From: Eublepharis macularius
Lineage: Eukaryota > Chordata > Lepidosauria > Squamata > Eublepharidae
Assembly (NCBI RefSeq): GCF_028583425.1
Contig: NC_072805.1
Coordinates: 14,146,001-14,210,000 of the forward strand
Direction of reading: 5' to 3'
Length of the DNA stretch: 64,000 bases
Of the stretch, positions 41,070 through 61,622 are shown piece after piece. Within the stretch, counting starts at the first letter, position 1. Each line of letters starts with the position of its first letter. Below the pieces are notes generated by a model that saw only the letters and a program-made list of their open reading frames with translations, was not told the DNA's origin and made no database searches. The position numbers and the translations under genes are program-made.

Positions 41070-41100
41070 GAGCCAAAACACACGTTAAGAACTACACGTG
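41070..41100 (+). repeat. Left terminal inverted repeat of the giant element
   Basis: GAGCCAAAACACACGTTAAG opens the element, CACGTG follows at 41095-41100, and further CACGTG copies occur at 41107-41112 and 41209-41214. Confidence 0.75.
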
Positions 41101-41986
41101 GTTGCGCACGTGTCCGCGCTCCCGTCTGTTTCGGCCCGCCCGTGGCTGTTTCAGAATTTCGGCGCGTGTCCTGCCCGCACCAGACCTGTGATTGTGTGTC
41201 CGCGTCTGCACGTGCCCCTCCTGACGACCAGCGAGTTCCCAGAACAGAGCGGCTATTTTTACCATCCCGGGGGCTGTGGACCTCTCAATGACTGCTAGAT
41301 GGCGCTATTGCCTGCAGCTTGCGAGCGAGCAGGTGACGCGCAATGGACTGGTCCGGGGGCCTCCAACGCGGGCCTCAAAAGATTGGATGACTGTTTGGCT
41401 TCGTGTCAGAGATGGCCCCCCTGGCTCCCCCCCGCACTCCGGGATCTTGCCCGGCTGCCTGAGGGCTTCGAAGCGGGGCGGGGGGCCCTGTCCGTTGGTT
41501 GGTGCTTGTCCACTGGGGGAGGGCATGCCTTTGACAAACACAGGCAAACACAGACATGTCTTCACTTGGGGAGGGGGGAACATTTTTGTGAGAAACACAC
41601 ACGGGACTGTCCGAAATCCCAGGGCCCGCCCAGGGCTTGGGGGGAGTGCACGGGCGAGGTCTAAGACATGTCTGTCAAAAAAAATTTTCTTGCCAAAAAT
41701 CCAGGGGCGCACTGCCCCTGGTGCCTCCGGGTGGACCCCATCACGGCTGCGTCTGGTTTTCCGTTCAGAGGCCCCAGGAATTAGGGGGGGCTTGATCAGC
41801 TCTTGACCTGCCGCATTGACCCGGTCGGTGTCTCCGATTCCCGCTTTTTCGGCTACGACCAACCAGCTTTCGGCCTCCGCGTGGTGCAACGCAATTGGCT
41901 GTGCAGTTGGTTTGCCCGCGCAAACCCCCGCAAACTCGTGAGGCTTCCCCTGCCGACCAGACGTGCCTCCGCCATCGTCGCAAAGC
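41101..41986. other. Left subterminal region and leader of the unknown gene
   Basis: CpG-rich with frames open on both strands. None has motif, splice or homology support. An inverted CCAAT (ATTGG) lies near 41891 about 95 bp before the start codon of the first gene, so part of this is probably promoter. Confidence 0.4.
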
Positions 41987-44506
41987 ATGGCGGAGTGGGT
42001 GCCAAGCAACTGGCGTGAGGAGTGGGCGGAGCAGGCGGCCGCGGCCATGGAGGAAAAGGGGCTGACGGAGCACGAGCGGGAGGCGGCGGAGGAGACCATG
42101 GTGCCGTTCCGCCTGGAGTCGCTGTTCCCTGACCGTGTCGATCTCGCCCACACGGTCCGCAGGAACTTGACCGCTGTTGTGGAGGACATCGAGGTCGACA
42201 TGGTGGAGAAGGAGTTTCTGGGCGAGCGACCACGAAGTAAGTCTTGTCAAGAAACGAGTGGGCGGCGGCCCCCGGAAGCTGTTCCTCGATGGGTGCAGTG
42301 TTCTGCAGCGGGCCCAGGAATGTTCCACCTTTGAACTCCAGGAGCTTGGGCAGCCCAAACTATATTCTCTGTTGGGCGGCCCAAGCTCTATTGCTCTATT
42401 CTCCTCTGAGGCCTAGCCTAGCGGCTTGCAAGCCGGCTCTGTTCTCCTCTGACGCCTAGCTGGCCAAAGGGGGACATTGGCCTGCGGCCGCAAAGCGCGG
42501 TTAGGAGCCACGGGATTCTAATCTGGAGAACCAGGTTTGAATCCCCACCCCTCCACTTGAAGCCAGCTGCATGGCCTTGGGTCAGTCACAGCTCTACCAG
42601 CTGGTATTTGGCTGGTCAGCACTCCAAAGTTAGGTTCTCCTCTGAGTTCTAGAAATCCTGTCTGCACCCAAGTGTCCCACAACCTAGAAAAGCATTTCTA
42701 TTGATTTCAGTAGAAGCCGGGCTCAGTGCACAGTACATTGCCTGCATGGTTCTACCTCCTGAAGCAAGATAGAGAGCTTCCAGTGTTAAACCTTTTGTGT
42801 GCATTTTGCTATATAGGAAGTTCTGGAGTGTGGCATGCTATTTTAGCATCTACCATCTGAAGAATGTGATTGAGATCACAAGATTCTGCACTTTGGAAAG
42901 AGGTTAGGTAAAGGACTATGCAGCAGTACCAATGCAGGTTTTATATGTTTTTTATACACCCAACCTCCAAAAGGAGAACTTTTAAAGAGCTGATTTTTTT
43001 GTGCTTGCTCTTAACAGGATTGAATAAACTGTGAAATATTAAAATGATATCTAATGGTTATAATGATTATGGTCAGCAATTGATGGTGATACAGAAGTGA
43101 ACATAAACAAAAGGTTGCAGCTCTGCTTGTCAGAGGCAATATTACATCAACAAACCGACTGTACAGCCGATTGTGTGGCGCCAGGCGCAGGCCGAGCTGC
43201 CAGAGATCTGGGAAACACAGCGCTCATGTTTGAGGATGGTACGCACAGCTGGAAGGCTTGCTCTGTTCTCCACTGAGGCCTAGCTGGCCAAAGGGGGACA
43301 TTGGCCTGCGGCCTCGCAGCGTGCCCGGGCAAGTTCCACTTTTATACTCTGGGTGCTGGGGATAGGTCAACAAAAGGTGCTGGCGAAGGCTACTGGTGGC
43401 TCTTGCCAGGGAGAAGGGACACACGGCTCACATGTTTGGGGAGGGGCCGCACAGCTTGCGGGCTTGCTCCCTTCTCCTTTGAGGCCTAGCTGGCTAAAGG
43501 GGAGCATGGGCTGGGCCAGCAGCGTGCGCGGACACGTCCCAATATGACCAACAAGAGTCCAGCGGATATGCACGCTGTGTGTCCTGGTGCAGCCTGGAGC
43601 GGGGAACTGTCAGGGAGATGGGACGCACATAGCACTCATGGTTGGGGAGGGTCCACATAGCTTGCAGGCTTGCTCCTTTCTCCTCTCTAGGCCTAGCTGG
43701 CTAAAGCGGAGCATGGGCTTGGCCGGCAGCATGCCCGGGCAAGTTCCACTTTTGCACTCGGCATAGGTCGGGCGAGAAGCGTGTCCAGACAATTTTACGG
43801 TCAGTAGAGAAGCGGGCCCGGTCATCCCCCAATATGACAGAAGAGGTGCTGGGGAAGGCTGGGGGTGGCGATTGCCAGGGAGAAGGGACACACGGCTTGC
43901 AGGTTGGGGGATGGGCATCACCAATCGATTGAAATTCCTTAATCGTTACACCGCCTGTCTTTCAGCCAGTGACACCGAGCGACGGATGGAGGCTGTGGGG
44001 TTGGCCCATGAGAGAATCCAGGCACGCCGGGACCAGTTTTGGAGTAAGTGGCTAATGGCGGCCCACTGGGCGCTGCGAGGTCACTGTTGGGTCGACAGAG
44101 GGCGCCTAGATGGGGGCTTTGGTCGGTGTTTCCACAATGCTCAGTAGTATGGTTGGTCGGGGCAAAGACTGCTTATTGCATTCCAATTGGTTTCCCGCCA
44201 GCAGGCCCCACTGCGGGGAAGGAAGAGGAGGAGGAGGAGGAGGAGATTGACCTGCTGGATGGTGGGATGTCTCCTGCCGCCTTTCTCACGGCAACTCAGC
44301 GTGGAAGACCGCACGCACCCGAGCAACTCCGCGAAGAGCCTGGGACTTCGACCCCGCGTCCACCCTCGCCAAAAAGAGTGAGGGCATTCTCGCGTGTCCC
44401 GAGCTTTGCCCAGGTGCTTGGCCGTCGAAGGGGGGGGGGCGTCTGGCTCGATGGACAGTTGAGTGAATGGACACAGGGGGCCTGGGGTTCCCGCCTGCCA
44501 TGGTGA
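41987..44506 (+). CDS. Spliced gene of unknown function (209 aa, 3 exons)
   Basis: Exons are 41987-42236, 43966-44043 and 44205-44506, all joined in frame. The first donor is GAA|GTAAGT, the second GGA|GTAAGT. Acceptors are CTGTCTTTCAG and the NAGNAG site CGCCAGCAG, which allows a 1-residue variant. The ATG has a good context (AAGCATGG). The protein opens MAEWVPSNWREEWAEQ, is rich in charged helices (EKGLTEHEREAAEETM; DTERRMEAVGLAHERIQ), then has eight glutamates before IDLLDGG, and a basic proline-rich tail (PPSPKRVRAFSRV). AATAAA lies 18 bases after the stop. I do not recognise the family. The acidic stretch and lysine/arginine clusters would fit a nuclear or adaptor protein, but no function is shown. 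Intron 1 is long and repeat-filled. Confidence 0.65.
42340..42491 (-). repeat. Diverged monomers related to the 248-bp array
   Basis: CTCTGAGGCCTAGCCTAGCG and GACGCCTAGCTGGCCAAAGG occur here and resemble the reverse complement of the 248-bp unit's TAGGCCTCAAAGGAGAAG block. Confidence 0.5.
42492..43140. other. AT-rich host-like block with a SINE piece inside intron 1
   Basis: 42499-42610 has TCTAATCTGGAGAACCAGGT, GAATCCCCACCCCTCCACTT and GAAGCCAGCTGCATGGCCTT, matching the SINE at 32125-32375. The following 500 bp is AT-rich and unlike the rest of the element. The GGCCTAGCTGGCCAAAGGGG phrase occurs on both sides (about 42457 and 43277), so the block looks inserted or captured. Confidence 0.6.
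43240..43920 (-). repeat. Diverged, inverted relatives of the 248-bp array
   Basis: GGTGGCTCTTGCCAGG, GGCTTGCTCCCTTCTCCTTT and GAGGCCTAGCTGGC repeat about three times. Their reverse complements are the core of the unit at 54944-59418. This puts related subterminal repeats in opposite orientation at the two sides of the element. Confidence 0.65.
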
Positions 44507-44523
44507 GCCCTGTCTGTCGGCAA

Positions 44524-44529
44524 AATAAA
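44524..44529 (+). promoter_or_regulatory. Polyadenylation signal of the unknown gene
   Basis: AATAAA 18 bases after the stop, followed by a T-rich stretch (GCTTTGTTTAAAC). Confidence 0.75.
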
Positions 44530-44739
44530 GCTTTGTTTAAACTTAACAGGCTCCGCACACTGAATACACATGTCCTGGATCCGGAAACGGGTTGCGCTTT
44601 GAGCATGTCTGCATGTTTTGGGAACCCATTTTCTGGGATAGTCTTTAAACAGAAGGTGCTGGGGAAGCCTGGAGGGTGCTCTTGCCGGGGGGCTGGAACA
44701 CACACACAACTTGGATTTGGGGGGAAGGGAGGCTGAGGT

Positions 44740-47150
44740 ATAACGTTTTCTGGCTCAATATTGACACATGAGGTCCAGGGCACACCTGGGGGGTGATCTG
44801 GCCAAAGGGCCTGGAACCAGCACCCTGGATTTGGGCGGGGGGGGGGAAGGAACACAGATCTGGCAGGGCTGCTCCTTTCTCCGCTGGGCCATGGCTGGGA
44901 AGAGCCATGCACGGCCCTGCCGTGTCTCCACAGGCAGGGGAGGCCTGGAGCAAACCCTTTTCTGGCTCAATATTGACACATGAGGGGGGGCAGGGGGGTT
45001 TGGGGACTCCTTAGCCAAGTCTCCCCGAAGTGGCCTGTGTCCTCCATGTTGAGATCGGGGGGGGGGGGCAGGGAGGGAGAAGCAGGACAGGACACAAGGA
45101 AGATTTGGAGAACAGAGGCCGCGGCTGGCCAGTCGTGCAAATTCAATGAGAGGCTAGTGTTTTCTCGCAGGAGTGATCTGAAGGACAAAAGAGAGGTCCC
45201 CAGGGCGCGGCCAGGGCATGCCTGTCGCGGAAACGTGTGCAAATCTGGCCAAAGGGCCTGGAACCAGCACCCTGGATTTGGGCGGGGGGTGGGAAGGAAC
45301 ACAGATCTGGCAGGGTTGCTCCTTTCTCCTCCGGCCCATGGCTGGGAAGAGCCATGCAAGGCCCTGCCGTGTCTCCCCAGGCAGGGGAGGCCTGGAGCAA
45401 ACCCCTTTCTGGCTCAATATTGACACATGAGGTCCAGGGCACACCTGGGGGGTGATCTGGCCAAAGGGCCTGGAACCAGCACCCTGGATTTGGGCGGGGG
45501 GGGGGGGAAGGAACACAGATCTGGCAGGGCTGCTCCTTTCTCCGCTGGGCCATGGCTGGGAAGAGCCATGCACGGCCCTGCCGTGTCTCCACAGGCAGGG
45601 GAGGCCTGGAGCAAACCCTTTTCTGGCTCAATATTGACACATGAGGGGGGGCAGGGGGGTTTGGGGACTCCTTAGCCAAGTCTCCCCGAAGTGGCCTGTG
45701 TCCTCCATGTTGAGATCGGGGGGGGGCAGGGAGGGAGAAGCAGGACAGGACACAAGGAAGATTTGGAGAACAGAGGCCGCGGCTGGCCAGTCGTGCAAAT
45801 TCAATGAGAGGCTAGTGTTTTCTCGCAGGAGTGATCTGAAGGACAAAAGAGAGGTCCCCAGGGCGCGGCCAGGGCATGCCTGTCGCGGAAACATGTGCAA
45901 ATCTGGCCAAAGGGCCTGGAACCAGCACCCTGGATTTGGGCGGGGGGTGGGAAGGAACACAGATCTGGCAGGGTTGCTCCTTTCTCCTCCGGCCCATGGC
46001 TGGGAAGAGCCATGCAAGGCCCTGCCGTGTCTCCCCAGGCAGGGGAGGCCTGGAGCAAACCCCTTTCTGGCTCAATATTGACACATGAGGTCCAGGGCAC
46101 ACCTGGGGGGTGATCTGGCCAAAGGGCCTGGAACCAGCACCCTGGATTTGGGCGGGGGGGGGGGGAAGGAACACAGATCTGGCAGGGCTGCTCCTTTCTC
46201 CGCTGGGCCATGGCTGGGAAGAGCCATGCACGGCCCTGCCGTGTCTCCACAGGCAGGGGAGGCCTGGAGCAAACCCTTTTCTGGCTCAATATTGACACAT
46301 GAGGGGGGGCAGGGGGGTTTGGGGACTCCTTAGCCAAGTCTCCCCGAAGTGGCCTGTGTCCTCCATGTTGAGATCGGGGGGGGGGCAGGGAGGGAGAAGC
46401 AGGACAGGACACAAGGAAGATTTGGAGAACAGAGGCCGCGGCTGGCCAGTCGTGCAAATTCAATGAGAGGCTAGTGTTTTCTCGCAGGAGTGATCTGAAG
46501 GACAAAAGAGAGGTCCCCAGGGCGCGGCCAGGGCATGCCTGTCGCGGAAACATGTGCAAATCTGGCCAAAGGGCCTGGAACCAGCACCCTGGATTTGGGC
46601 GGGGGGTGGGAAGGAACACAGATCTGGCAGGGTTGCTCCTTTCTCCTCCGGCCCATGGCTGGGAAGAGCCATGCAAGGCCCTGCCGTGTCTCCCCAGGCA
46701 GGGGAGGCCTGGAGCAAACCCCTTTCTGGCTCAATATTGACACATGAGGTCCAGGGCACACCTGGGGGGTGATCTGGCCAAAGGGCCTGGAACCAGCACC
46801 CTGGATTTGGGCGGGGGGGGGAAGGAACACAGATCTGGCAGGGCTGCTCCTTTCTCCGCTGGGCCATGGCTGGGAAGAGCCATGCACGGCCCTGCCGTGT
46901 CTCCACAGGCAGGGGAGGCCTGGAGCAAACCCTTTTCTGGCTCAATATTGACACATGAGGGGGGGCAGGGGGGTTTGGGGACTCCTTAGCCAAGTCTCCC
47001 CGAAGTGGCCTGTGTCCTCCATGTTGAGATCGGGGGGGGGGGCAGGGAGGGAGAAGCAGGACAGGACACAAGGAAGATTTGGAGAACAGAGGCCGCGGCT
47101 GGCCAGTCGTACAAATTCAATGAGAGGCTAGTGTTTTCTCGCAGGAGTGA
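44740..47150. repeat. Tandem array, ~658-bp unit, about 3.7 copies
   Basis: The phrase CTCAATATTGACACATGAGG followed by TCCAGGGCACACC recurs at 44754, 45413, 46071 and 46730. Each unit itself holds two diverged halves (CTGGAACCAGCACCCTGGAT to AATATTGACACATGAGG). Copies are nearly identical except in poly-G length. All long frames here are periodic in both strands and are repeat artefacts. Confidence 0.95.
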
Positions 47151-47789
47151 TCTCGCAGGTCGCGCCCCCCCCCCCCGGTCGGTGAAAAATTCATGGGGAC
47201 ACCGGCGGCCGCCAGCGCGGTTCCCACCCGTCGGTCTCAGCAGACGCGAAAAAGGGAGGCGGGCCGGGCGGGCGGCGATGCGGGGCTCGAACAAGGAGTC
47301 CCAGGGCACTAAGCAGGCCTTCCTGCTTGTTGCTCTACGGGACTCCTGTGCGGCAGCCCCCTCTGATAGCATGCATATTTCGGCTGCGACCTTCGGGGAG
47401 GGAATTCAGGGGGGGGGAGGCAGAGCGCATCTTAACATCGGATGACTTCACCCTTGCATCGCACAAAAGGGAAATATGAAGGACAAAGGAGTGGCGCTTG
47501 GGGCGCGTCGAATACATGCCTGTCGCGCAAACATGTGCAAATAAAACGGCCCGCAAACCAACTTGGGGCCCTGAGAGGAGAACATGCAAAACCTGCCCCC
47601 ACGGGGCCTGCCGCGCGCCCATTGAATCCCACAAACGAAACCTGCTCTGTTGGAACCAGGTGCCAGGTCGCTTATTCAGGGTGGAGCCCCGTGGCAGGCC
47701 TCACCGGAAACCCTCCGCCACTCTTGGCACAAGGCAAATCTCTCCTGCAAGTCCTATAATTGTGCCTCAAACACAAAGTCAGGAGAACA
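47151..47789. other. CpG-rich spacer, no gene seen
   Basis: Unique CpG-rich sequence with a GCGCGCCCATTGAATCCCAC...GAAACCTGCTC block that recurs, modified, at about 48160-48200. No supported coding exon. Confidence 0.45.
47278..47346 (-). other. tRNA-like module
   Basis: On the minus strand GTAGAGCAACAAGCAGG (A-box position) and TTGTTCGAGCCCC (B box) are spaced as in tRNA genes. Arms do not fold into a convincing full cloverleaf, so I do not call a tRNA gene. Confidence 0.35.
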
Positions 47790-48050
47790 GAAACGGCAGG
47801 GGGGTTTGGGGAGTCCTTCGCCAAGTCTCCCCGAAGTGGCCTGTGTCCTCCATGTTGAGATCGGGGGGGGGGGGCAGGGAGGGAGAAGCAGGACAGGACA
47901 CAAGGAAGATTTGGAGAACAGAGGCCGCGGCTGGCCAGTCGTTCAAATTCAATGAGAGGCTAGTGTTTTCTCGCAGGAGTGATCTGAAGGACAAAAGAGA
48001 GGTCCCCGGGGCGCGGCCAGGGCATGCCTGTCGCGGAAACATGTGCAAAT
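47790..48050. repeat. Isolated partial copy of the 658-bp unit
   Basis: GGGGGGTTTGGGGAGTCCTT through GGAAACATGTGCAAATC repeats the second half of the array unit, separated from it by ~640 bp of unique sequence. Confidence 0.85.
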
Positions 48051-48489
48051 CACACTGCCTGCACAGCAACTTGGGCCCCAGAAAAAAAGAAGTAGGCAAC
48101 GCGGGCCAGGCAAGGATCGAACGGGGATCACAATGGACTCAAAGCCATCCCTCTTGCCGCGCGCCCATTTGATCCCCCGAACGAAACCTGCTCCGTTGGA
48201 ACAGTGGTGGGGAAAGTCCTCCCCCTGCCCCGAGAAACGGCAGGCTGGGAAGGAATATGCAGATTTTTCCTATTGTGCACGCCTATCCGCCCGGTACTGC
48301 CGGTATTTAACCGGTGTGCGCCCCGAAAAGTAAGGCTTTTCAGCCCATAACCGACCAAGCACCATCCCCTCGTCTTCGCCCGATGCTGAAACTTGGCATC
48401 CGCCACGCAGCGTCGAGCACCCGTGACCTGACCGCAAGAGGGCTGGGATGGAGCCTGTGGGCGATAAAACCGGGAATATGAGGGCGACT
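48051..48489. other. CpG-rich spacer with a second tRNA-like module
   Basis: At 48108-48165, minus strand, TTTGAGTCCATTGTGATCCC and CGTTCGATCC resemble the anticodon-arm and B-box region of a tRNA. No gene supported. Confidence 0.35.
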
Positions 48490-49208
48490 TCTTTATTCAG
48501 AGCCAAGTTCGACCGCCGCGCAATGTGGCGGTTTGGTGAGAGCCCCGTTTCCACGTGGAGCAGGGTTTCTCGCGAGCTCGAAAAATGCTTGCGGTCATAT
48601 GCCCACCCATGAACTCAGCTTCTGCTGAGACGATACAACACTTAGGGCCCCCGCGGGGGCCCGACAAAACAGTGACAAAAGGAAGGGCGCAGACAATGGG
48701 CAAGCCATCACCATGAGTAGGCCTGGGTGGGGAAGTCCTGTGGGTGGAGCGGAGCCTGGATGACTGGCTGGCCAACCCGCTTATTCGTATGTAAATTGAG
48801 AGCAGAGAGCATGGGAGCAGAGTAGCTGCAATGGTTGGGCGGGCGCCGGGCAGGAGCAGGCACAGTCAGCACATTCTTTCCCCGCTGCAAGCACACCTGG
48901 GCTTTCGCAAGGCTGCGGAGAGGCTGGATTGCGGTTTGCCTTGGCGCCCACCATGACTGAAACGTCACGATCGCTGCGTGGTGTGCTGGCGGCGTAGTCG
49001 CCACATCTCCATGGGCGCCGCCGAAATCCCACATGGCCCTGCTGCCACACTGTGGCCGGCAGGGTGGTGGAGGGCCCCGATTCCACGTGGAACCGGGACT
49101 CTCACCATTGCACTCCTTTGTGGTTAAATTTTGTGCGGCAATGCCCGGACCAGGCCGGATTAGACTAAAGATCCAATAGCCTGGCCTTCGAATTTGGCTC
49201 TGAATAAG
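48490..49208. repeat. Inverted repeat with long spacer
   Basis: TTATTCAGAGCCAAGTTCGA at 48490 and its inverse TCGAATTTGGCTCTGAATAA at 49189 are followed inward by matching GGTGAGAG(C/T)CCCG and TTCCACGTGGA blocks. CACGTGGA includes the same CACGTG palindrome found at the termini. Confidence 0.6.
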
Positions 49209-49624
49209 GGAGGGCCCTCACGCAACCCTCCCGATCTCTTGGTAAAGGACATTAGCAGAGCACCAGGCATCCTGAAAGGCGCACACAAAGCGAAGCCCAG
49301 TAGGCTGTATGTGCCACCCCCAGTAATCCCAGCTCTGTGTCCCTGCTCCCAGGCCTGCCAACCAGGGTCCCCTCTGTATTATTCCCCGGAAAATATCCCA
49401 GGCGTGTGCTCCCGCTCCCGGCCCAGAGCACAGTCAAGGCTCCCCCCGGGCCCTTCCTGTGAAAACTCTCCCTGCAAGCAGCTTCCAGATTTGCCTTTAG
49501 TGAGGAGTCTGCTGGTTTTCCATGTCACCAAATGTGGGAGATTCTGCCCAAAGAAAATATGATTTCCTCATGCAGTTGAGCCAATTCTTTATAGTTGTTT
49601 TATTAAACCAAAATGTCACATGCA

Positions 49625-49661
<37 letters not shown>

Positions 49662-50550
49662 CAGTTTGCCGCAACCCTATGAGGGGGTCATGTTTAATTC
49701 AGGTGACCAAACAGCGCAATGAACTCATTAGGTGTTATAAAGAGTGACTGCTAGATATTTATCAATGGTATATAAAGTTTCAGGAAATTGTTGGAATCTA
49801 GTGAAAGCCAGACTAGAAGCAATTTTGGGGTGGGGTAATTTTAAGAACGGCTACCCAGGAGCTGGACTTTGCTTAGCAAGAGACGATTTTAAACATCATT
49901 ATAGGTTGAGACACATTTTGGGGTGAAGTCTTCCATGATGGTTTTTTTTTTTGTGTGCCTCTTTCCATTTGTATGCACCGGTCGGAATGGGACCTGGGGA
50001 TAGGGAACACACAGCAAACCAAACCCGGGGTATGCCGTGTGAGCCCCAACTCGAAGCGGTTCCCGCCCCCAGGCCAGAGCAACCGCCAGGCTGCAACAGC
50101 ACGATCTCTTGAAAAATAAAAGTCAGAGCATGTAGAGGGTTGCCCTAACTCCGGTCAGGCGGGCGGTCCAAGCACCAGCCAAGCCTCTAGAGGCCCCTCC
50201 CCGGCAATAAACAAAAAAACCGCGAACGTGATGGGTCGCCCAGGATCGAGCGAGGATCCCCATGAGCACAAAACCGTCGTTCTATCCTCGTGCCCATGGG
50301 GTCCTCTGCCTAAAACGGCACCGAACGGCACCAAAGAGCAGTCCTTCGACCCGGCCACCCTCCCCCGTGCTCGCCCAAACACACAGATGCTGTTCCTCCG
50401 CCCGCCCGCCCCCCGCCCACCACCACCTTCGACGCGGCCCCCCTCCCCCGTGCTCGCCCAAACACACAGATGCTGTCCCTCCGCCCGCCTCACCACCATC
50501 CCACCCCCCCCGCCCTGGATAGAGACACACAGTCTGAAACCGGCTGTACC
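49209..50550. other. Spacer with (CA)n and AT-rich patch, no gene seen
   Basis: A (CA)n run lies at 49628-49661. 49540-49930 is AT-rich, unlike the rest of the element. At 50225-50290 a third minus-strand tRNA-like module reads TTTTGTGCTCATGGGGATCC and CGCTCGATCC. 50340-50520 is a C-rich duplication (CCCCCTCCCCCGTGCTCGCC twice). Confidence 0.4.
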
Positions 50551-50559
50551 GGTCACAGC

Positions 50560-50565
50560 TTTATT
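50560..50565 (-). promoter_or_regulatory. Polyadenylation signal of the transposase gene
   Basis: AATAAA on the minus strand only 3 bases after the TAA stop, an extremely compact 3' end. Confidence 0.8.
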
Positions 50566-50568
50566 GGA

Positions 50569-51894
50569 TTATCGGCCATGCTGGAAGTGCGCACTTATGG
50601 CGGCACGAATCGATACTGCCCGCGCGGTAAGAGCGGCCTCGGACCAGGGAATCTGCGGCCGCTCATCCGCGGGCTCCATCAGCGGCTCGCGCGGGAACGG
50701 CCCGTAAACGATGTCCCCGCGCGAGAGGCAAATGTTGTGAAGGATGCAGCAGGTGGTGATTACCGCGACCATGAGGCGCTCGCTGACAAGTAGGGGCCGC
50801 TGTAAATAAAGCCAGCGATTTTTCAGAATTCCGAACGAGCGTTCCACACTCATGCGCGCCCGGCTCAGTCTGTAGTTAAAGCGCTCCTGGGCGCGCGTTG
50901 ATGGCGCCGGATAGGGCTTCATGAGCCAGGGCCGAAGAGGATAGGCGGGGTCCCCGATGATTACCGGGTCGAATGTGACCCCCTCCAGAGTGACCGGCCG
51001 CTTCGGGCGACGGGCGCCATCCTCGAGTCTCTTGAAAAGGGGCGAGTTACGGAGCACACGCGCGTCGTGCGCCCTTCCCGGGAAGCCCACAAAAATGTCC
51101 AGGAATCGTGCATCGCTGTCCACCACCGCCTGGAGAATCATGGAGCAGTATCCCTTGCGGTTGATGTACTTGTCCCCAGAGAAAGGCGGAGAACGGATCT
51201 CGATGTGTGTCCCGTCCACGGCGCCCCAGGCATTGGGGAATCCCCTCTCCTCGAACCCGGAGATAATGTCCTCGAGGTAATCGATGCAGATCCACTTCTC
51301 GGTCAGCTTTGCAGCGATGAGCTCGCAGACCTCGTCGAATATCCCGCAGACGGTAGAGACGCCACGGCCAAATGCGGGCAGTGTCGCGGAGTTTGTGGTT
51401 CCCGTGGCAAGCTTCCAGATGGTGATGGCGATCATCTCCTCGGGAGGGACTGGGTCGCGCATGTGGGTCGTCTCGCGGACGAGATCTTCGCGAAGCTCCC
51501 CAACAATGTACTCGAACGTGGCACGTCGCATTCTGAACTGCTGCAGCCACTGCCCGTCACTGAACTCGTAGCGCTCCCACCACGGCCACCAGTGAGGGCA
51601 TGCCCGGGGAAGCACCCATGCCTTCCTCGGCGGGAAAGCAACAATGAAGCACTGCGCCATCTCCTCCACGGACGCAAGTGTTGCCACCAACTGCCGCAGT
51701 CTTCTTCTTTGTCGCGCGCGGCGGCCGTTAACTTCCTCTCCCAGCCGCCTCCCGAGCAGGGCCACAGTGTCAGCTGTGGCAGCCGTAGAGCGGATGACCG
51801 ACCGCGCGAACAAGGAGAGCGCGACCGCAAAGGCACGGAGTGTTTCTCTCGGCGGCTGGCCCCTGCTGCTCCTCTTCCCGTGAGCGGGCGCCAT
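50569..51894 (-). CDS. HARBI1-like PIF/Harbinger transposase, intact
   Basis: This 441-residue intronless protein is a DDE-superfamily nuclease that would cut and join Harbinger termini in the nucleus. From the start codon, an arginine-rich N-terminus (RRARQRRRLRQL) precedes a helix-turn-helix region (about residues 125-200, ATFEYIVGELREDL to GRGVSTVCGIFDEV). The catalytic core follows: D227 in GAVDGTHIEI, D315 in IGDPAYPLRPW and E351 in MSVERSFGILKNRW, with GRAHDARVLRNS between the first two. The D315-E351 spacing and PLRPW phrase are typical of HARBI1. I chose the ATG at 51892-51894 (GCCATGG context) because the longer open frame has no upstream ATG. No stops or frame breaks. Length is near the family norm, with an N-terminal extension. 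It is divergent from the SANT gene at 52202 and antisense to long spurious frames. Confidence 0.95.
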   Translation of the reverse strand: MAPAHGKRSSRGQPPRETLRAFAVALSLFARSVIRSTAATADTVALLGRRLGEEVNGRRARQRRRLRQLVATLASVEEMAQCFIVAFPPRKAWVLPRACPHWWPWWERYEFSDGQWLQQFRMRRATFEYIVGELREDLVRETTHMRDPVPPEEMIAITIWKLATGTTNSATLPAFGRGVSTVCGIFDEVCELIAAKLTEKWICIDYLEDIISGFEERGFPNAWGAVDGTHIEIRSPPFSGDKYINRKGYCSMILQAVVDSDARFLDIFVGFPGRAHDARVLRNSPLFKRLEDGARRPKRPVTLEGVTFDPVIIGDPAYPLRPWLMKPYPAPSTRAQERFNYRLSRARMSVERSFGILKNRWLYLQRPLLVSERLMVAVITTCCILHNICLSRGDIVYGPFPREPLMEPADERPQIPWSEAALTARAVSIRAAISAHFQHGR

Positions 51895-52201
51895 GGCGTG
51901 ACGGCGACCGCAACGGTTCCCGCCCCACAACGGCCCCTTCTCCTTAGACGTCCGCCCCCCCGCCCCCTCGTGACGTGGCCGACACTGTCCAATGCCGCGC
52001 GAGTGTGACGCCCAGACGCTCTCGAGCAGCCGTCTCTTGCAGCGAGTCGACAGGCGATTGGTCCCCTGCCGGCCACGTCAGCGTCGCGCCCCCCTCCAAC
52101 TTACTGTAAAGGCAGCCCGAAACTGACCGCGAAGACCGCCGTTGACGATCGTTTGTTGCTCCCGAGCCCAGCAAAGGACACCCAGAACGGCCAACCGCAA
52201 C
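51895..52201. promoter_or_regulatory. Shared divergent promoter of transposase and SANT gene
   Basis: The 307-bp gap is CpG-rich and TATA-less. It contains mirror-image modules: TGACGTGGCCGACACTGT with CCAAT (51971-51993) and ATTGG followed by CCGGCCACGTCA (52057-52080). Each is a CRE-like TGACGTGG plus a CCAAT box at the same spacing, pointing towards the other. This symmetry suits balanced transcription in both directions. Confidence 0.6.
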
Positions 52202-53518
52202 ATGGACTCCACCGCGCCTCCCGAACCCGCAAGCAGTCTGCCTCTCTTGATCACCCTCAGCACCAGCCCCACGTCCTGCACCGGTGCCGGACTCTCGGTG
52301 GTCCCGGCGGCCCGAGGCAAGAAGGCAAAGGCCGCCCCCTGGTCTGACGAGGAAACGAGAGCCCTCATCCAGATTTGGGGGGACGACGCTGTGCAGAGCA
52401 GGCTTTCCGCAAGCTACAGGAATGTGAGCCAGTTCCAGTGGATCGCGAACGAGATGGCGGCCAGGGGTTTCCCCAGGGACTGGGAGCAGTGTCGTGAGCG
52501 GGCGAAGACTCTGAGAAGGGGCTACAAGGAGTGTGTGGACGGGAACAGTCGTTCGGGACACGGGCGGAGGGTTTGGCCCTTCTTTGAGGAACTGAACCGG
52601 TTCCTGCGGCTGGAGCAGGATCTGGTGGTGCCACGGGTGATGGGCACTGGCGTCCCCCCAACCGTCGTTGACCGGCGTCGACGTTCGGCCAGAGCCACTG
52701 AGGGGGAACCGGAGGGGGATACCGACAATGTGGCCGGCGTTGGAACGGAGGACACCGAGGACACCTTCGAGGAGCCCGCCGGCGATTGCCTCCCAGATCG
52801 ATCTGTGGCAGCAGCGGCCGGCGACCACTCCGCGGCAGAGACCGTCGGTGAGTAATGTCCCGTGGGCAGTTGTGCGGTCGGGAATGCGGGGTGCCTGCGG
52901 GAGGGAGGCCCCCATCTAACACCGTCTCCCTCGTTCTTCACACGCTACCCAGCCGACACCACGGCCGCCGGGACACGCCGTCTGTCTCCGGCGGAGCGAA
53001 TGTCGAACCTCCGACTTCGGCGCCGGGAGCGCCCGCGCAACGAGGCGATCGTGTGCATGGAGGCGACTCGGCGTGCGGTGGAGAAAATATCGTCGGAGCT
53101 GACCGACTCCTGCGCAGTGGAGAAGGAGGCGCGGCAGAGTGAGGCTGCTGACCGAGGCGAGCAAAAAGAACTGTTTAGCCGGGCGGTTGAAGCGGCAGAG
53201 CGCCAAGCAGCCACGGCAGAAAGCTGCATGCGCGACATGGTGCGCCTCCTGGAGAGGATGGTCTCCGCGGTTGAGGCCCCCGCTGCCCCACCATCAAGCA
53301 CTGCCGGCCCCAGGGACTCCGCAGACGGTGAGGCCCCCACAGCCGACGCTCCCGACCACGCTCCCACGGCGGATCCCGCCGCAGATGAGAACCGGCCGCC
53401 GGAGCCGCCCGCTCCACGCCCAAAGAGGTTCCGTGTCCGGGCCGACCCCGAACCCCTTCCTAGGGGCTACCTGTTTGCAAAAAGGCAGCGCTGCCCACCA
53501 CGACGCTACCGGCTGTAG
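52202..53518 (+). CDS. Harbinger Myb/SANT (trihelix) partner protein, 403 aa, 2 exons
   Basis: Exons 52202-52847 and 52953-53518 join in frame (donor GTCG|GTGAGT, acceptor CGCTACCCAG). Residues ~45-135 form a Myb/SANT-like trihelix domain: APWSDEETRALIQIWGD, NVSQFQWIANEMAARGF, EQCRERAKTLRRGYKE and WPFFEELNRFL. This is the fold used by Harbinger-encoded Myb-like proteins and by vertebrate MSANTD/ZSCAN20/29-type genes to bind DNA. An acidic linker follows, then a long charged helix (NEAIVCMEATRRAVEKI ... AERQAATAESCMRDMV, likely coiled coil), and a basic tail RPKRFRVRADPEPLPRG with a nuclear-signal look. In known Harbingers the partner brings the transposase to the nucleus and to the termini, and that role is inferred here. 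AATAAA is at 53851. Confidence 0.85.
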
Positions 53519-53850
53519 GGTGTATGAGGCCCCTCTGCACCGGGGTCTAATCGTCTGATCGGGCATTCCTATTAATGTGTTTTCCCAATGTTGGGGGGGT
53601 TACTTTTTGTTTCTAACCGGTGGCGGCTGTGGGGCGGATTTCGGACGCATAAGGGTGGGAGCTTGGGCGGTGGGAGACGCCGGCCTTTCGAGAGATCCGG
53701 CCGGGGAGGGGTGGCGGCCAGTTGTGCCGGTCACGGTCCACGGGGGTTGGTTGGGGGGCGGTTGCTTGTTATCCAGCACCACCCTCGTTGACTTGTGCTC
53801 CAGCACTTCTAATGTTCGCTTGAATTGAGTGCACCATGTTTTTTTTCCTG

Positions 53851-53856
53851 AATAAA
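53851..53856 (+). promoter_or_regulatory. Polyadenylation signal of the first SANT gene
   Basis: AATAAA 332 bases after the stop, followed by GACACTTTCACG and a T-rich stretch. Confidence 0.75.
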
Positions 53857-54765: not shown

Positions 54766-54943
54766 CATTTTGTCCTTTTCCCCACCCAGGCACCCACCCA
54801 GTCCCACGAGCCCCCCCTTTCCTGACGGAGGTCCACCCATGCCCCCCCCCTGGTGCCCAGCTTGGCCCTAGAGGAGAAAAGAGCAAGCTTGCAAGCCGCG
54901 TGTCCCGTTCCACAAACATGCAGGCTGCATTGCCGCACCCCTC

Positions 54944-57900
54944 GCTATGGGTGCTATGTGTGCCCCCTCTGCCAGGCACCCACCCAGTAGGCCTCAAAGG
55001 AGAAGGGAGCAAGCCTGCATGCCAAAGATGGGTGCCATGTGTGCCCTCTCTGCCTGGCAAGAGCCAGTAGGCCTCAAAGGAGAAGGGAGCAAGCCTGCAT
55101 GCCAAAGATGGGTGCTATGTGTGCCCCCTCTGCCTGGCAAGAGCCACCTGAAGGCTTCCCCAGCCCCTTGTCCCTCTCAGCTTGGGACATGTCCAGGCAC
55201 GCTTCTCGCCCGTCCCACGCCAGGCACCCACCCAGTAGGCCTCAAAGGAGAAGGGAGCAAGCCTGCATGCCAAAGATGGGTGCCATGTGTGCCCTCTCTG
55301 CCTGGCAAGAGCCAGTAGGCCTCAAAGGAGAAGGGAGCAAGCCTGCATGCCAAAGATGGGTGCTATGTGTGCCCCCTCTGCCTGGCAAGAGCCACCTGAA
55401 GGCTTCCCCAGCCCCTTGTCCCTCTCAGCTTGGGACATGTCCAGGCACGCTTCTCGCCCGTCCCACGCCAGGCACCCACCCAGTAGGCCTCAAAGGAGAA
55501 GGGAGCAAGCCTGCATGCCAAAGATGGGTGCCATGTGTGCCCTCTCTGCCTGGCAAGAGCCAGTAGGCCTCAAAGGAGAAGGGAGCAAGCCTGCATGCCA
55601 AAGATGGGTGCTATGTGTGCCCCCTCTGCCTGGCAAGAGCCACCTGAAGGCTTCCCCAGCCCCTTGTCCCTCTCAGCTCGGGACATGTCCAGGCACGCTT
55701 CTCGCCCGTCCCACGCCAGGCACCCACCCAGTAGGCCTCAAAGGAGAAGGGAGCAAGCCTGCATGCCAAAGATGGGTGCTATGTGTGCCCTCTCTGCCTG
55801 GCAAGAGCCAGTAGGCCTCAAAGGAGAAGGGAGCAAGCCTGCATGCCAAAGATGGGTGCTATGTGTGCCCCCTCTGCCTGGCAAGAGCCACCTGAAGGCT
55901 TCCCCAGCCCCTTGTCCCTCTCAGCTTGGGACATGTCCAGGCACGCTTCTCGCCCGTCCCACGCCAGGCACCCACCCAGTAGGCCTCAAAGGAGAAGGGA
56001 GCAAGCCTGCATGCCAAAGATGGGTGCCATGTGTGCCCTCTCTGCCTGGCAAGAGCCAGTAGGCCTCAAAGGAGAAGGGAGCAAGCCTGCATGCCAAAGA
56101 TGGGTGCTATGTGTGCCCCCTCTGCCTGGCAAGAGCCACCTGAAGGCTTCCCCAGCCCCTTGTCCCTCTCAGCTCGGGACATGTCCAGGCACGCTTCTCG
56201 CCCGTCCCACGCCAGGCACCCACCCAGTAGGCCTCAAAGGAGAAGGGAGCAAGCCTGCATGCCAAAGATGGGTGCCATGTGTGCCCTCTCTGCCTGGCAA
56301 GAGCCAGTAGGCCTCAAAGGAGAAGGGAGCAAGCCTGCACGCCAAAGATGGGTGCTATGTGTGCCCCCTCTGCCTGGCAAGAGCCACCTGAAGGCTTCCC
56401 CAGCCCCTTGTCCCTCTCAGCTTGGGACATGTCCAGGCACGCTTCTCGCCCGTCCCACGCCAGGCACCCACCCAGTAGGCCTCAAAGGAGAAGGGAGCAA
56501 GCCTGCATGCCAAAGATGGGTGCCATGTGTGCCCTCTCTGCCTGGCAAGAGCCAGTAGGCCTCAAAGGAGAAGGGAGCAAGCCTGCATGCCAAAGATGGG
56601 TGCTATGTGTGCCCCCTCTGCCTGGCAAGAGCCACCTGAAGGCTTCCCCAGCCCCTTGTCCCTCTCAGCTCGGGACATGTCCAGGCACGCTTCTCGCCCG
56701 TCCCACGCCAGGCACCCACCCAGTAGGCCTCAAAGGAGAAGGGAGCAAGCCTGCATGCCAAAGATGGGTGCTATGTGTGCCCTCTCTGCCTGGCAAGAGC
56801 CAGTAGGCCTCAAAGGAGAAGGGAGCAAGCCTGCATGCCAAAGATGGGTGCTATGTGTGCCCCCTCTGCCTGGCAAGAGCCACCTGAAGGCTTCCCCAGC
56901 CCCTTGTCCCTCTCAGCTTGGGACATGTCCAGGCACGCTTCTCGCCCGTCCCACGCCAGGCACCCACCCAGTAGGCCTCAAAGGAGAAGGGAGCAAGCCT
57001 GCATGCCAAAGATGGGTGCCATGTGTGCCCTCTCTGCCTGGCAAGAGCCAGTAGGCCTCAAAGGAGAAGGGAGCAAGCCTGCATGCCAAAGATGGGTGCT
57101 ATGTGTGCCCCCTCTGCCTGGCAAGAGCCACCTGAAGGCTTCCCCAGCCCCTTGTCCCTCTCAGCTCGGGACATGTCCAGGCACGCTTCTCGCCCGTCCC
57201 ACGCCAGGCACCCACCCAGTAGGCCTCAAAGGAGAAGGGAGCAAGCCTGCATGCCAAAGATGGGTGCCATGTGTGCCCTCTCTGCCTGGCAAGAGCCAGT
57301 AGGCCTCAAAGGAGAAGGGAGCAAGCCTGCATGCCAAAGATGGGTGCCATGTGTGCCCTCTCTGCCTGGCAAGAGCCAGTAGGCCTCAAAGGAGAAGGGA
57401 GCAAGCCTGCATGCCAAAGATGGGTGCTATGTGTGCCCCCTCTGCCTGGCAAGAGCCACCTGAAGGCTTCCCCAGCCCCTTGTCCCTCTCAGCTCGGGAC
57501 ATGTCCAGGCACGCTTCTCGCCCGTCCCACGCCAGGCACCCACCCAGTAGGCCTCAAAGGAGAAGGGAGCAAGCCTGCATGCCAAAGATGGGTGCTATGT
57601 GTGCCCTCTCTGCCTGGCAAGAGCCACCTGAAGGCTTCCCCAGCCCCTTGTCCCTCTCAGCTTGGGACATGTCCAGGCACGCTTCTCGCCCGTCCCACGC
57701 CAGGCACCCACCCAGTAGGCCTCAAAGGAGAAGGGAGCAAGCCTGCATGCCAAAGATGGGTGCCATGTGTGCCCTCTCTGCCTGGCAAGAGCCAGTAGGC
57801 CTCAAAGGAGAAGGGAGCAAGCCTGCATGCCAAAGATGGGTGCTATGTGTGCCCCCTCTGCCTGGCAAGAGCCACCTGAAGGCTTCCCCAGCCCCTTGTC

Positions 57901-59418
57901 CCTCTCAGCTTGGGACATGTCCAGGCACGCTTCTCGCCCGTCCCACGCCAGGCACCCACCCAGTAGGCCTCAAAGGAGAAGGGAGCAAGCCTGCATGCCA
58001 AAGATGGGTGCCATGTGTGCCCTCTCTGCCTGGCAAGAGCCAGTAGGCCTCAAAGGAGAAGGGAGCAAGCCTGCATGCCAAAGATGGGTGCTATGTGTGC
58101 CCCCTCTGCCTGGCAAGAGCCACCTGAAGGCTTCCCCAGCCCCTTGTCCCTCTCAGCTCGGGACATGTCCAGGCACGCTTCTCGCCCGTCCCACGCCAGG
58201 CACCCACCCAGTAGGCCTCAAAGGAGAAGGGAGCAAGCCTGCATGCCAAAGATGGGTGCTATGTGTGCCCTCTCTGCCTGGCAAGAGCCAGTAGGCCTCA
58301 AAGGAGAAGGGAGCAAGCCTGCATGCCAAAGATGGGTGCTATGTGTGCCCCCTCTGCCTGGCAAGAGCCACCTGAAGGCTTCCCCAGCCCCTTGTCCCTC
58401 TCAGCTCGGGACATGTCCAGGCACGCTTCTCGCCCGTCCCACGCCAGGCACCCACCCAGTAGGCCTCAAAGGAGAAGGGAGCAAGCCTGCATGCCAAAGA
58501 TGGGTGCTATGTGTGCCCTCTCTGCCTGGCAAGAGCCAGTAGGCCTCAAAGGAGAAGGGAGCAAGCCTGCATGCCAAAGATGGGTGCTATGTGTGCCCCC
58601 TCTGCCTGGCAAGAGCCACCTGAAGGCTTCCCCAGCCCCTTGTCCCTCTCAGCTTGGGACATGTCCAGGCACGCTTCTCGCCCGTCCCACGCCAGGCACC
58701 CACCCAGTAGGCCTCAAAGGAGAAGGGAGCAAGCCTGCATGCCAAAGATGGGTGCCATGTGTGCCCTCTCTGCCTGGCAAGAGCCAGTAGGCCTCAAAGG
58801 AGAAGGGAGCAAGCCTGCATGCCAAAGATGGGTGCTATGTGTGCCCCCTCTGCCTGGCAAGAGCCACCTGAAGGCTTCCCCAGCCCCTTGTCCCTCTCAG
58901 CTCGGGACATGTCCAGGCACGCTTCTCGCCCGTCCCACGCCAGGCACCCACCCAGTAGGCCTCAAAGGAGAAGGGAGCAAGCCTGCATGCCAAAGATGGG
59001 TGCCATGTGTGCCCTCTCTGCCTGGCAAGAGCCAGTAGGCCTCAAAGGAGAAGGGAGCAAGCCTGCACGCCAAAGATGGGTGCTATGTGTGCCCCCTCTG
59101 CCTGGCAAGAGCCACCTGAAGGCTTCCCCAGCCCCTTGTCCCTCTCAGCTTGGGACATGTCCAGGCACGCTTCTCGCCCGTCCCACGCCAGGCACCCACC
59201 CAGTAGGCCTCAAAGGAGAAGGGAGCAAGCCTGCATGCCAAAGATGGGTGCCATGTGTGCCCTCTCTGCCTGGCAAGAGCCAGTAGGCCTCAAAGGAGAA
59301 GGGAGCAAGCCTGCATGCCAAAGATGGGTGCTATGTGTGCCCCCTCTGCCTGGCAAGAGCCACCTGAAGGCTTCCCCAGCCCCTTGTCCCTCTCAGCTCG
59401 GGACATGTCCAGGCACGC
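54944..59418 (+). repeat. Tandem array, 248-bp unit, about 18 copies
   Basis: Each unit is an 80-bp part (CAGTAGGCCTCAAAGGAGAA to CTGCCTGGCAAGAGC) plus a 168-bp part that starts with a second copy of that block and continues CACCTGAAGGCTTCCCCAGC, CAGCT(T/C)GGGACATG and CAGGCACGCTTCTCGCCC. Copies differ at only a few positions (GGGTGCCATG/GGGTGCTATG, CTTGGG/CTCGGG, GCATGCC/GCACGCC). One extra 80-bp part occurs near 57300-57380, and one unit lacks it (57430-57620). The repeated 175-codon frames are artefacts of a stop-poor unit, because 248 is not a multiple of three. Confidence 0.97.
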
Positions 59419-59498
59419 GCAGGGTAGTGTGGCCCCTGGAGGTGGGGGGTGGGGGGGGTCTCCTCACGAAACGACTGCAAACAGGGATACAAGAAACA

Positions 59499-59504
59499 TT
59501 TATT
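59499..59504 (-). promoter_or_regulatory. Polyadenylation signal of the second SANT gene
   Basis: AATAAA on the minus strand (GTAAATAAATG) 48 bases after the stop, followed by GTTTCTTG. Confidence 0.75.
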
Positions 59505-59551
59505 TACAACGCAACCGTGCTTGAACAAACCCCAATCACAGCAGGCTCTCT

Positions 59552-60847
59552 TTATGAGTGTGCACCGTCACCCGCCCCCCCCCTCCCCAGCAGTGTGGCC
59601 ATGTCCCGGCGCATGTCCTGGACCGCTTGACCAATAGCCGTGATCTCCTCCGCCATCCTGGTCACCGCCGCCTCGGTTCGGTTCACTGCAGGAGAGAGCA
59701 CAATGAGAGCCACGCACCCGCCATCCCGGCAGCTCACCCCATCTCCAGTAATGGGTTCCCTCCCCCCCCACCTGTCTCCATTGGGGAAACATAGGACAAT
59801 GGATCTTGCCGGCACGGTGATCAATACCGCGGCCACCACATAGCCACAGATCTTCGCCGTCGCCAGTGGCCCAAAACCCTGATGGCCCACCCGCCTCTCG
59901 AAGCAGAAATGGCACCCCGCTTACACACTCTGAGGCAGGCCTCCACCGCGACCTGCCCACGCACTGCTATGGGCACAGCCTCCCGCTCCAGCTCTGCCCT
60001 GCGCCCCTCCTCCCGCGAAGTCCCCGCGCTGGAACCGGATGAGTCTGTGCCGGTACAAAACGTTATGTGTTCAGGGATTTCAAGGGCGGGCAAAAGATTC
60101 ACTTCTGCCAACGCCAGGCCCATCAAGCGCCCTGGCCGCGGCAGGGGGGGAGCCCTCCCCCGCCCTCATCCGCACATCCGTGTCACACCTGCAGACCCAC
60201 CTTGCTCCATGGTTGTGGCGGACTCAGGGCGGATCGGGCTATCCGCCACCACTCCGGTGGGCGATGATGGCGGCGCACGGAGGACAACCGCGCCCGGCAC
60301 CTCCTCCGCCTCCTCTCCACTGGTCACGGATATGATCTCTGCCCCGTGCTCCTCCCCTGCAGAAGAGCAAACAGTCAAGACACAGAGCTCCAGCGCCGCG
60401 CTCCCCTGGCCCGCCAAGCCGGCGCACCGCGCACTTTTTTGTCCCCCACCGGCAAAGGGGGCGTGCGAAGAAAGTCAGGGCCGGCGCAAAGCGCGCAAAG
60501 CGGAAAAGCTGCTCACCTCTCGGCTGCTGTCCCGCCGCCGCCAACCGTTCAGACTCCTCCTGAAGGCGCTCCATTGCGCGGTGGTGTGGCGGTGGTCGGA
60601 GCTGACCCCCCTGGCGCCAGCGCAGGAAGCGGTCCCGGAGCTGGCGGAACTTCCCACGGCATTCCTGTGGCGAGCGCGCGACGCCCGACACCGCCAGGCC
60701 GCGGGAGAGCGCCTCCCAGGCGTGCGGTGCACGTGCCCGCGCCCCGCGCATGAGCTCCCCCGCGTAGCCCATGCGCAGGATCGCTGTGAGCAGCATGTGG
60801 ACCTCGAACCGACGCCAGGGGCTGCGCGCTCGGACACGAGGCGGCAT
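59552..60847 (-). CDS. Second Harbinger SANT/trihelix-like protein, 246 aa, 4 exons
   Basis: Minus-strand exons are 60847-60517, 60356-60201, 60044-59925 and 59685-59552. They keep one frame through donors AGAG|GTGAGC, CAAG|GTGGGT and GTGT|GTAAGC and acceptors CTTCTGCAG, CCGGCACAG and CTCCTGCAG. Exon 3 could start at 60114 instead, also in frame. Residues ~8-85 resemble a divergent trihelix domain: SPWRRFEVHMLLTAILRMG, HAWEALSRGLAVSGV, SPQECRGKFRQLRDRFLRW. An acidic middle (SGEEAEEVPGAVV) follows, then a C-terminal heptad-like helix (AAVTRMAEEITAIGQAVQDM, RRDMATLL), probably for dimerisation. It is clearly different from the protein at 52202. A TATA-like GATATAAC lies about 45 bases before the ATG. 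Role inferred: terminal DNA binding or transposase partnering. A 482-codon frame on the other strand is a GC-driven shadow. Confidence 0.75.
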
Positions 60848-61591
60848 CGCTCCACGCTGTGCGGCGCGCTCGCGTCTGGAAGGACTGTTATATCCCCTCG
60901 GCGAACGGTCCACAGCCACACTCCACGCACCCCGAGGGGATGCGGAACACATCAATCATCACGAGGCGCCCCGATTCGGCAACCCCAAGATCCGCCCCCA
61001 CCACAAAGAAAGGTGGATTGGACCATCCAGGGAATTGAATGTCAGCAAAATGTTCATTGGGCGGACATGCAGGCGGGGAGCCGGCCCTCAAGACGTAACA
61101 GAATCGGCGGGCACAGGACCGGGGAGCCCAGTCCTTCAGGCCAGAGACGCCAACAGGTGTCTGCACAGCCGTGGGTCCTGCACACATGCGGCCAGTCAGC
61201 GTGTGGCGGGCTCTGGTCATGCCGGGTGCAGGACCTGCCCGCTGCTCTTGGGGCTGGCACCCCGCGTCACTTCGAACAGCCCTTTCAGCAAACCCCAACA
61301 AGCGTCGGCAAACCCGGACAGCGCGCATAGAGTGCTATGACGCGATGCCAACTTATAGTGACGATCAATGCATGACGCCACCTGCCGGCCACTTCAGGTG
61401 CAGCAACTGATGGCCTATTTCTCGGCCATTTTCCTGTGAGCATGCGCCAAGGGAAGCGCGTCACAGAAGTACAGCCGAGAACCCGTGGACGGTCGACCGC
61501 GAACGCGTGTAGGGGGGGTGCCGAAACACACGGGCAGCACGTGAACAGCAAAACCCGCTGGAGACACGTGTAAGTGCAATCGCGTGGACGG
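60848..61591. other. Right subterminal region, no gene seen
   Basis: Probably holds the promoter of the second SANT gene: an inverted CCAAT (CATTGGGCGG) lies at about 61046. CACGTG copies occur at 61538-61543 and 61565-61570. Confidence 0.45.
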
Positions 61592-61622
61592 CACGTGAAA
61601 TGCGTCACGTCTGTTTCGGCTC
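61592..61622 (-). repeat. Right terminal inverted repeat of the giant element
   Basis: Read inwards it starts GAGCCGAAACAGACGTGACG and has CACGTG at positions 26-31 (61592-61597), the same offset as on the left. Right flank is TTA. Confidence 0.75.

Follow-up and report, generated by a model that had tools for sequence, protein, structure and literature searches.

The element and its genes

The window analysed here comprises 64,000 nucleotides of the gecko Eublepharis macularius (NCBI RefSeq assembly GCF_028583425.1, contig NC_072805.1, positions 14,146,001 to 14,210,000 of the forward strand). Positions 41070-61622 of the window are a single copy of a Harbinger-like mobile element of ~20.5 kb, as found by analysis of the letters and by a search of the genome (2.24 Gb in 72 contigs). 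In what follows the window is C16:14146001-14210000, and other loci are labelled in the same way, by contig and position in Mb. A preliminary description, made from the letters of the window, had proposed a four-gene unit of this size, a proposal now borne out at many loci by paired ends, common interiors and duplications of the target site.

The element is bounded by imperfect terminal inverted repeats (TIRs). The left one (41070..41101, plus strand) begins GAGCC, and the right one (61591..61622, minus strand) ends GGCTC. Compared over their first 32 bases, the two ends share 24, with 14 matches in the first 16, a level reached by none of 50,000 shuffles. The motif CACGTG starts at base 26 from either end, the equal offset to which the preliminary description had drawn attention. 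Three such motifs lie in the left subterminal region (41095..41214; starts at 41095, 41107 and 41209) and three in the right one (61538..61597; starts at 61538, 61565 and 61592); together, 6 of the 10 CACGTG motifs of the element are within 150 bp of an end. The 40-bp left terminus is identical in all eight left-end loci fetched, and a shorter copy at C14:14.9 begins likewise. The change in base composition at the termini was also confirmed: GC content is 0.61 inside the element versus 0.43 and 0.45 in the flanks, and the observed/expected ratio of CpG is 0.59 versus 0.30 and 0.40.

The transposase is encoded by a single exon on the minus strand (50569..51894; AATAAA at 50560, minus strand). 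Its 441 amino acids, counted from the ATG, match the Pfam family DDE_Tnp_4 (PF13359) over the full model (positions 1-158 of 158, E 6.6e-35), in keeping with the intact DDE transposase recognized earlier; a search of the PDB with this protein gave no match at E 0.01. The adjacent gene, Myb1, has two exons on the plus strand (52202..52847, containing a Myb/SANT domain, and 52953..53518; AATAAA at 53851, plus strand), and its product matches Myb_DNA-bind_4 (PF13837, E 4.6e-22). Gene 4, near the right end, encodes a second Myb/SANT protein of 246 amino acids from four exons on the minus strand (60517..60847, 60201..60356, 59925..60044 and, with the stop codon, 59552..59685; AATAAA at 59499, minus strand). 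It matches the same Pfam family with E 1.7e-10. In a pairwise BLASTP comparison with Myb1 it scores E 0.43 and is therefore no recent duplicate of that gene; the two SANT proteins are distinct, as had been supposed.

Gene 1 lies next to the left end on the plus strand. Its first exon (41987..42236) encodes a conserved domain of 83 amino acids outside the Pfam families; the second (43966..44043) has in-frame splice sites, and the third (44205..44506) contains the stop codon, with AATAAA at 44524 on the plus strand. The product, 209 amino acids from the three exons, is short and acidic. Neither Pfam, applied to gene 1 and to three of its remote or older homologs, nor a PDB sequence search with the alignment of exon 1 returned anything significant. 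Thus, the fourth gene and the frame-preserving splices of the preliminary description are all in place: three of the genes have in-frame GT-AG introns, the transposase is unspliced and AATAAA signals stand near all four gene ends.

Copies and target sites across the genome

A search with the left end of the element scored the best 40 of 156 candidates, each 99-100% identical, and a search with the right end the best 40 of 136, again at 99-100% identity. The window itself excepted, left-end matches begin at query bases 63-71, and the element starts at query base 71. When the two sets were matched by strand and distance, 32 of the 40 scored left ends had a partner among the scored right ends, on their own strand and at 4.8-33 kb; this leaves eight ends of each kind single among these best matches. 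The spacing has a median of 18.0 kb and falls within 15-27 kb in 27 of the 32 pairs and within 16-24 kb in 24. Thirty pairs enclose exactly one transposase match, 96-100% identical and antisense to the element. Among near-full-length transposase matches (95-100% identity), 44 of 46 have no internal stop; a further one, on C9, lies in two parts. The ratio of nonsynonymous to synonymous substitution rates (dN/dS) for the transposase is 0.11-0.20 against four homologs, two of which have stops.

Protein matches were also clustered by position, taking in 88 of 95 matches for the transposase, 83 of 150 for Myb1, 93 of 152 for gene 4 and 96 of 148 for gene 1; those outside are second fragments or weak repetitive matches. 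There are 43 four-gene clusters, and 41 have exactly the order gene 1 (+), transposase (-), Myb1 (+), gene 4 (-). Partial clusters comprise 13 with genes 1 (+) and 4 (-) only and 14 with the transposase and Myb1 only (identities 43-74%). The preliminary description had sought other loci with both ends and the same genes, which the paired ends, their enclosed transposases and the ordered clusters supply. It had also named, as the outcome that would count against it, ends found only as separate short elements; with 32 of 40 left ends paired and the interior shared, this is not what the genome holds. On the same grounds we reject the chance association of short elements.

Another of the 43 clusters, at C11:19091856-19130360, consists of two four-gene elements that stand tail to tail over ~39 kb (1+ T- M+ 4- 4+ M- T+ 1-) and could form a compound unit.

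A second full copy, 18.0 kb long at C8:56.2 Mb, matches the window copy from one end to the other, in three alignment blocks of 99.5-99.7% identity. The gaps in the alignment are confined to two tandem arrays: one at 45243..46960, with units of ~0.2 and 0.66 kb and unequal copy number in the two elements compared, and one of 248-bp units at 54971..59418, with ~18 copies here and a smaller number at C8. Intron 1 of gene 1 contains an AT-rich piece of 511 bases, which is 97-100% identical in all 40 matches scored (the best 40 of 52 candidates). Given the colinearity of the C8 copy and this widely kept intron piece, the interior is part of the mobile unit. The flanks (eight left and 30 right read) are mutually unlike, and identity reaches up to GAGCC and GGCTC.

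In a comparison of 30 loci across ~4.4 kb surrounding the transposase, 28 fall into two groups, with mean distances of 0.14% and 0.07% from their own majority; L039 and L041 lie outside both groups and, taken over the full locus, differ from the window copy by 3.3% and 23%. The lizard substitution rate is near 1e-9 per site per year, which would place the age of the copy groups on the order of one million years. With dozens of nearly identical copies, large pieces of DNA therefore appear to have been moved very recently in a vertebrate genome. The element is very probably a giant, apparently autonomous, very recently active four-gene cut-and-paste transposon of the PIF/Harbinger-ISL2EU-Spy (PHIS) superfamily.

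Two kinds of size variant were followed further. The copy at C14:14.9 is 6.4 kb long through an internal deletion of what corresponds to window 42315-53688, which leaves gene 4 and the first exon of gene 1 in place; lost are the transposase, Myb1 and the other two exons of gene 1. Two copies, at C9:23.8 Mb and C9:94.8 Mb, are 33 kb long, and the enlargement is explained for the first of these. There, a sample of 600 bases between gene 1 and the transposase contains a frame that is integrase-like by eye and has 783 candidate relatives; a second 600-base sample has 3188 candidates and recurs at 100% identity within the element, at a distance of 14,086 bp. An ordinary copy enlarged by a nested long terminal repeat (LTR) retroelement at C9:23768914-23783599 would explain these sequences, and the identity of the repeat samples indicates that the retroelement is very young. 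Extra cargo in this copy is rejected on account of the identical repeat samples and the abundant relatives.

Cut-and-paste movement of this kind leaves a short duplication of the target. In seven pairs with both flanks read, the triplets beside the two ends are identical in six, the window copy being the one that differs. The C14:14.9 copy has TGT on both sides, and an exact search for TTA, TGA or TAA followed by the 32 bases of the left terminus adds three TGA and three TAA matched pairs. Altogether, 13 of the 15 exactly read pairs (of 24 with the right-flank triplet known) have identical triplets. A looser test, which asks at what point in the flank the left-end alignments stop, was consistent in 21 of the 24 pairs, where shuffles gave a mean of 10.2 and none of 20,000 reached 21. 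Of the three pairs that failed it, C2:211 has identical triplets, and its failure can be put down to the alignment.

The 13 matching triplets are TTA or TAA (six), TGA (three), ATA (two), CTA and TGT, and 4 of the 13 are not TNA. TWA is present in 15 of 30 right flanks. The same 30 flanks begin with T in 25 cases and have A as third base in 26 and G as fourth in 20, and C precedes the left triplet in seven of nine left flanks; the counts are biased, as similarity to the flank of the window copy had a part in the ranking of these loci. The target thus tends to be looser than TWA, with a probable leaning to C|TNA|G. The preliminary description had looked for a 3-bp TWA duplication: the 3-bp duplication is present in the pairs read, whereas the strict TWA sequence is not, nor is a duplication in the window copy itself.

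Several points weigh against the reading as a recently active transposon. The window copy has ATA on the left and TTA on the right, the C19 pair is mismatched as well (TGA/ATA), and C14:51, scored consistent by alignment extent, is likely to be ATA/TTA like the window copy. Alignment extent also failed at C9:92 and C19. The left triplet is unread exactly in nine of the 24 pairs, C14:61 and C9:94 among them. At the other seven, C4:67, C9:23, C6:114, C6:83, C3:166, C9:92 and C14:51, the pair's own right triplet gave no exact left-end match; either the triplets are unequal there or a base has changed within the 32-base terminus, and 13 of 15 is therefore a favourable sample. Copy counts are lower bounds, each DNA search having scored its best 40 matches, and the whole-length comparison covers two copies, those of the window and C8:56.2 Mb. 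For gene 4, dN/dS reaches 0.54-0.68 in 3 of 15 homologs. Finally, the case for recent movement is drawn entirely from the genome sequence, and a comparison of flanks among the loci read gave no empty site. The main claim holds despite the unread triplets because it is carried by the paired ends, the shared interiors and the unlike flanks.

History of genes 1 and 4

Exon 1 of gene 1 was compared with 20 homologs fetched from the genome. In 17 of them dN/dS relative to the window is 0.15-0.34 (amino acid identity 59-91%); of three remote homologs, one has a ratio of 0.44 at dS 1.4, and the other two have reached synonymous saturation. No stop codon is present in the aligned part in any of the 20. 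The three remote homologs, which are 35-37% identical, keep the first-intron donor in the same position. Weak relatives of gene 1 lie within 10 kb of a transposase match in 8 of 60 cases, where 0.05 would be expected, and the other 52 are farther away; the count used 60 of 61 weak rows (the one omitted is a fragment of a stronger match) and 88 of 95 transposase matches. Based on the low dN/dS, the donor kept in remote homologs and this proximity to transposases, we conclude from sequence comparison that gene 1 has long belonged to a wider Harbinger lineage and was not picked up recently as cargo.

One fetched locus among the 52 more distant weak relatives (L088, C1:41635300-41636300) belongs, with similar loci, to an abundant family containing a remote relative of gene 1, 37% identical over 67 amino acids with the exon end kept.

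For gene 4, exon 1 has dN/dS of 0.13-0.68 against 15 homologs, three of which have one stop each, and a GGTGAG donor near the same place closes the exon in 11 of the 15. Older four-gene elements are also present. Identities for gene 1, the transposase, Myb1 and gene 4 are 89, 90, 81 and 58% at C1:77.2 Mb, 88, 87, 86 and 67% at C2:109.9 Mb, and 69, 81, 69 and 48% at C12:54.2 Mb; gene 4 is the most diverged of the four genes in each. Recent capture of genes 1 and 4 as host cargo is rejected on account of the old homologs and of dN/dS mostly well below 1. Rather than passing host cargo, the two genes look like the element's own long-kept genes, because of their dN/dS against divergent genomic copies (17 for gene 1 and 15 for gene 4). 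The cargo-bearing giant element of the preliminary description is accordingly upheld in part: the element is several-fold larger than usual and has four genes, but the extra genes look element-owned instead of host-derived.

Affiliation, mechanism and alternatives

Features of the PHIS superfamily found here are an IS5-like DDE transposase, a second open reading frame (ORF) for a Myb/SANT protein and short TIRs that start with A or G (here GAGCC, with 24 of 32 bases matching). A 3-bp duplication is present for the family (13 of 15 read pairs, with nine of 24 unread) and absent from the window copy; the TWA duplication of PIF/Harbinger in the narrow sense does not describe these target sites. 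Published information is drawn here from portions of the papers cited. Autonomous PIF/Harbinger consensus sequences average ~4,124 bp, most with two ORFs (PMC4482050), which agrees with the background assumed in the preliminary description, a transposase plus a Myb-like protein in a few kb. Two proteins are also reported for teleost Harbingers (PMC9179366) and for Harbinger-Snek of sea kraits (PMC8437027). Like Harbinger3_DR, Ping/Pong and Harbinger-Snek, the gecko element combines a DDE_Tnp_4-type transposase with an adjacent Myb/SANT gene, a short TIR starting with G and a 3-bp duplication. Unlike the two-gene elements of ~4.1 kb in the sources consulted, it measures 16-24 kb in 24 of 32 pairs, has two extra genes and large tandem arrays, and its duplication extends beyond TWA.

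The NuwaII group of an 836-genome survey has C|TNA|G as its target, autonomous consensus sequences averaging ~4.7 kb and TIRs mostly starting with GG (PMC4482050). The likeness of the gecko element to NuwaII is by target only, with flanks biased by ranking and 4 of 13 duplications not TNA; it differs, by that account of the group, in its larger size and its GAGCC terminus. In size class and extra genes it also resembles Polintons/Mavericks, Terminons and Starships. Those elements use other enzymes than the gecko element. For the Polinton/Maverick DNA polymerase B, packaging ATPase and protease, there was no Pfam match above the cut-off among the six ORF translations scanned.

A literature search, covering titles, the openings of abstracts and few subscription papers, turned up no giant or four-gene Harbinger, and a described consensus may exist. 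In the newt Pleurodeles there is a Harbinger expansion with Myb-like genes and, in the text examined, no giant element (PMC5741667); by term counts, Harbinger and PIF have zero occurrences in the main text of a 2019 review of giant transposons (PMC6431247). Within the literature searched, the four-gene 16-24-kb element is a form of PIF/Harbinger beyond the published, mostly two-gene ones.

In two-gene Harbingers, the TIRs are bound by the ORF1 (Myb) protein, through which the transposase also enters the nucleus, according to the portion of the source used (PMC2836001). By analogy, Myb1 would escort the DDE transposase into the nucleus and on to the element's ends. Gene 4, as a second Myb/SANT protein, may read the subterminal CACGTG clusters, and gene 1 could be a co-factor that pairs or bridges ends 16-24 kb apart. 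Excision would be followed by re-integration at C|TNA|G-like targets, duplicating 3 bp, and selection within the element lineage would have kept genes 1 and 4. We tentatively propose a distinct reptile lineage of four-component Harbingers, in which gene 1 and the second Myb belong to the transposition machinery and permit units of 16-24 kb, a natural large-capacity vertebrate transposon.

A possible, though rather doubtful, alternative is that genes 1 and 4 are passengers that persist beside the ends while the transposase and Myb1 do all the work. Ordinary two-gene Harbingers need ORF1 and transposase only, in the part of the literature drawn on (PMC2836001), and genes 1 and 4 do adjoin the ends; the C14:14.9 deletion copy keeps gene 4 and exon 1 of gene 1 without the transposase and Myb1, and there are the 13 clusters of genes 1 and 4 only and the 14 of transposase and Myb1 only. 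However, passengers would not be expected to show the constraint found in exon 1 of gene 1 (0.15-0.34 in 17 homologs, stops in 0 of 20), a splice donor kept at 35-37% identity or weak relatives near transposases in 8 of 60 cases against 0.05 expected. Selection of this sort on genes absent from ordinary two-gene Harbingers would also fit a role of gene 1 or gene 4 in countering host silencing of the transposon instead of aiding transposition, and the high identity of copies may imply recent escape from repression. This we consider unlikely: gene 1 gives no hint of such a domain in the Pfam or PDB sequence searches, and gene 4 has a Myb/SANT DNA-binding domain.

Spread of the 20-kb unit by segmental duplication, or by chance pairing of two short elements, is highly improbable. 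The unequal triplets of the window copy would suit it, and a 0.6-Mb cluster of related '1+ 4-' elements at C10 86.5-87.1 Mb may be such a case. Against it, eight left and 30 right flanks differ while identity runs to GAGCC/GGCTC, and in these unlike flanks the triplets are equal in 13 of the 15 pairs read exactly. The C10 region itself (C10:86493676-87060421) holds eight '1+ 4-' clusters, possibly segmental duplications, with no scored transposase match.

If the proposed four-component transposon is correct, big multi-gene DNA transposons would be at work in a lizard kept as a pet and in laboratories. With a natural vertebrate element of 16-24 kb, present in dozens of near-identical and apparently intact copies, the length tolerance of transposition becomes directly testable; the element also offers genes 1 and 4 as candidate accessory proteins and could become a large-capacity tool for gene transfer. 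Repeat libraries may, at a guess, have split such elements into several unrelated repeats.

Other features of the window are minor. An Rfam search of the element gave no match, and a tRNA scan of the window found none. Within the GC-rich element, AT-rich stretches lie at window 42500-43000 and 49500-49999 and are present in both copies compared; the first may be a captured reptile short interspersed element. Directly right of the element, at 61876-61962, is a tandem repeat of the 6-bp unit GTCCGT that encodes an arginine/valine repeat ORF. To the left, an ORF of 185 amino acids on the minus strand (21294-21851) is presumably the tail of a reverse transcriptase from a long interspersed element.

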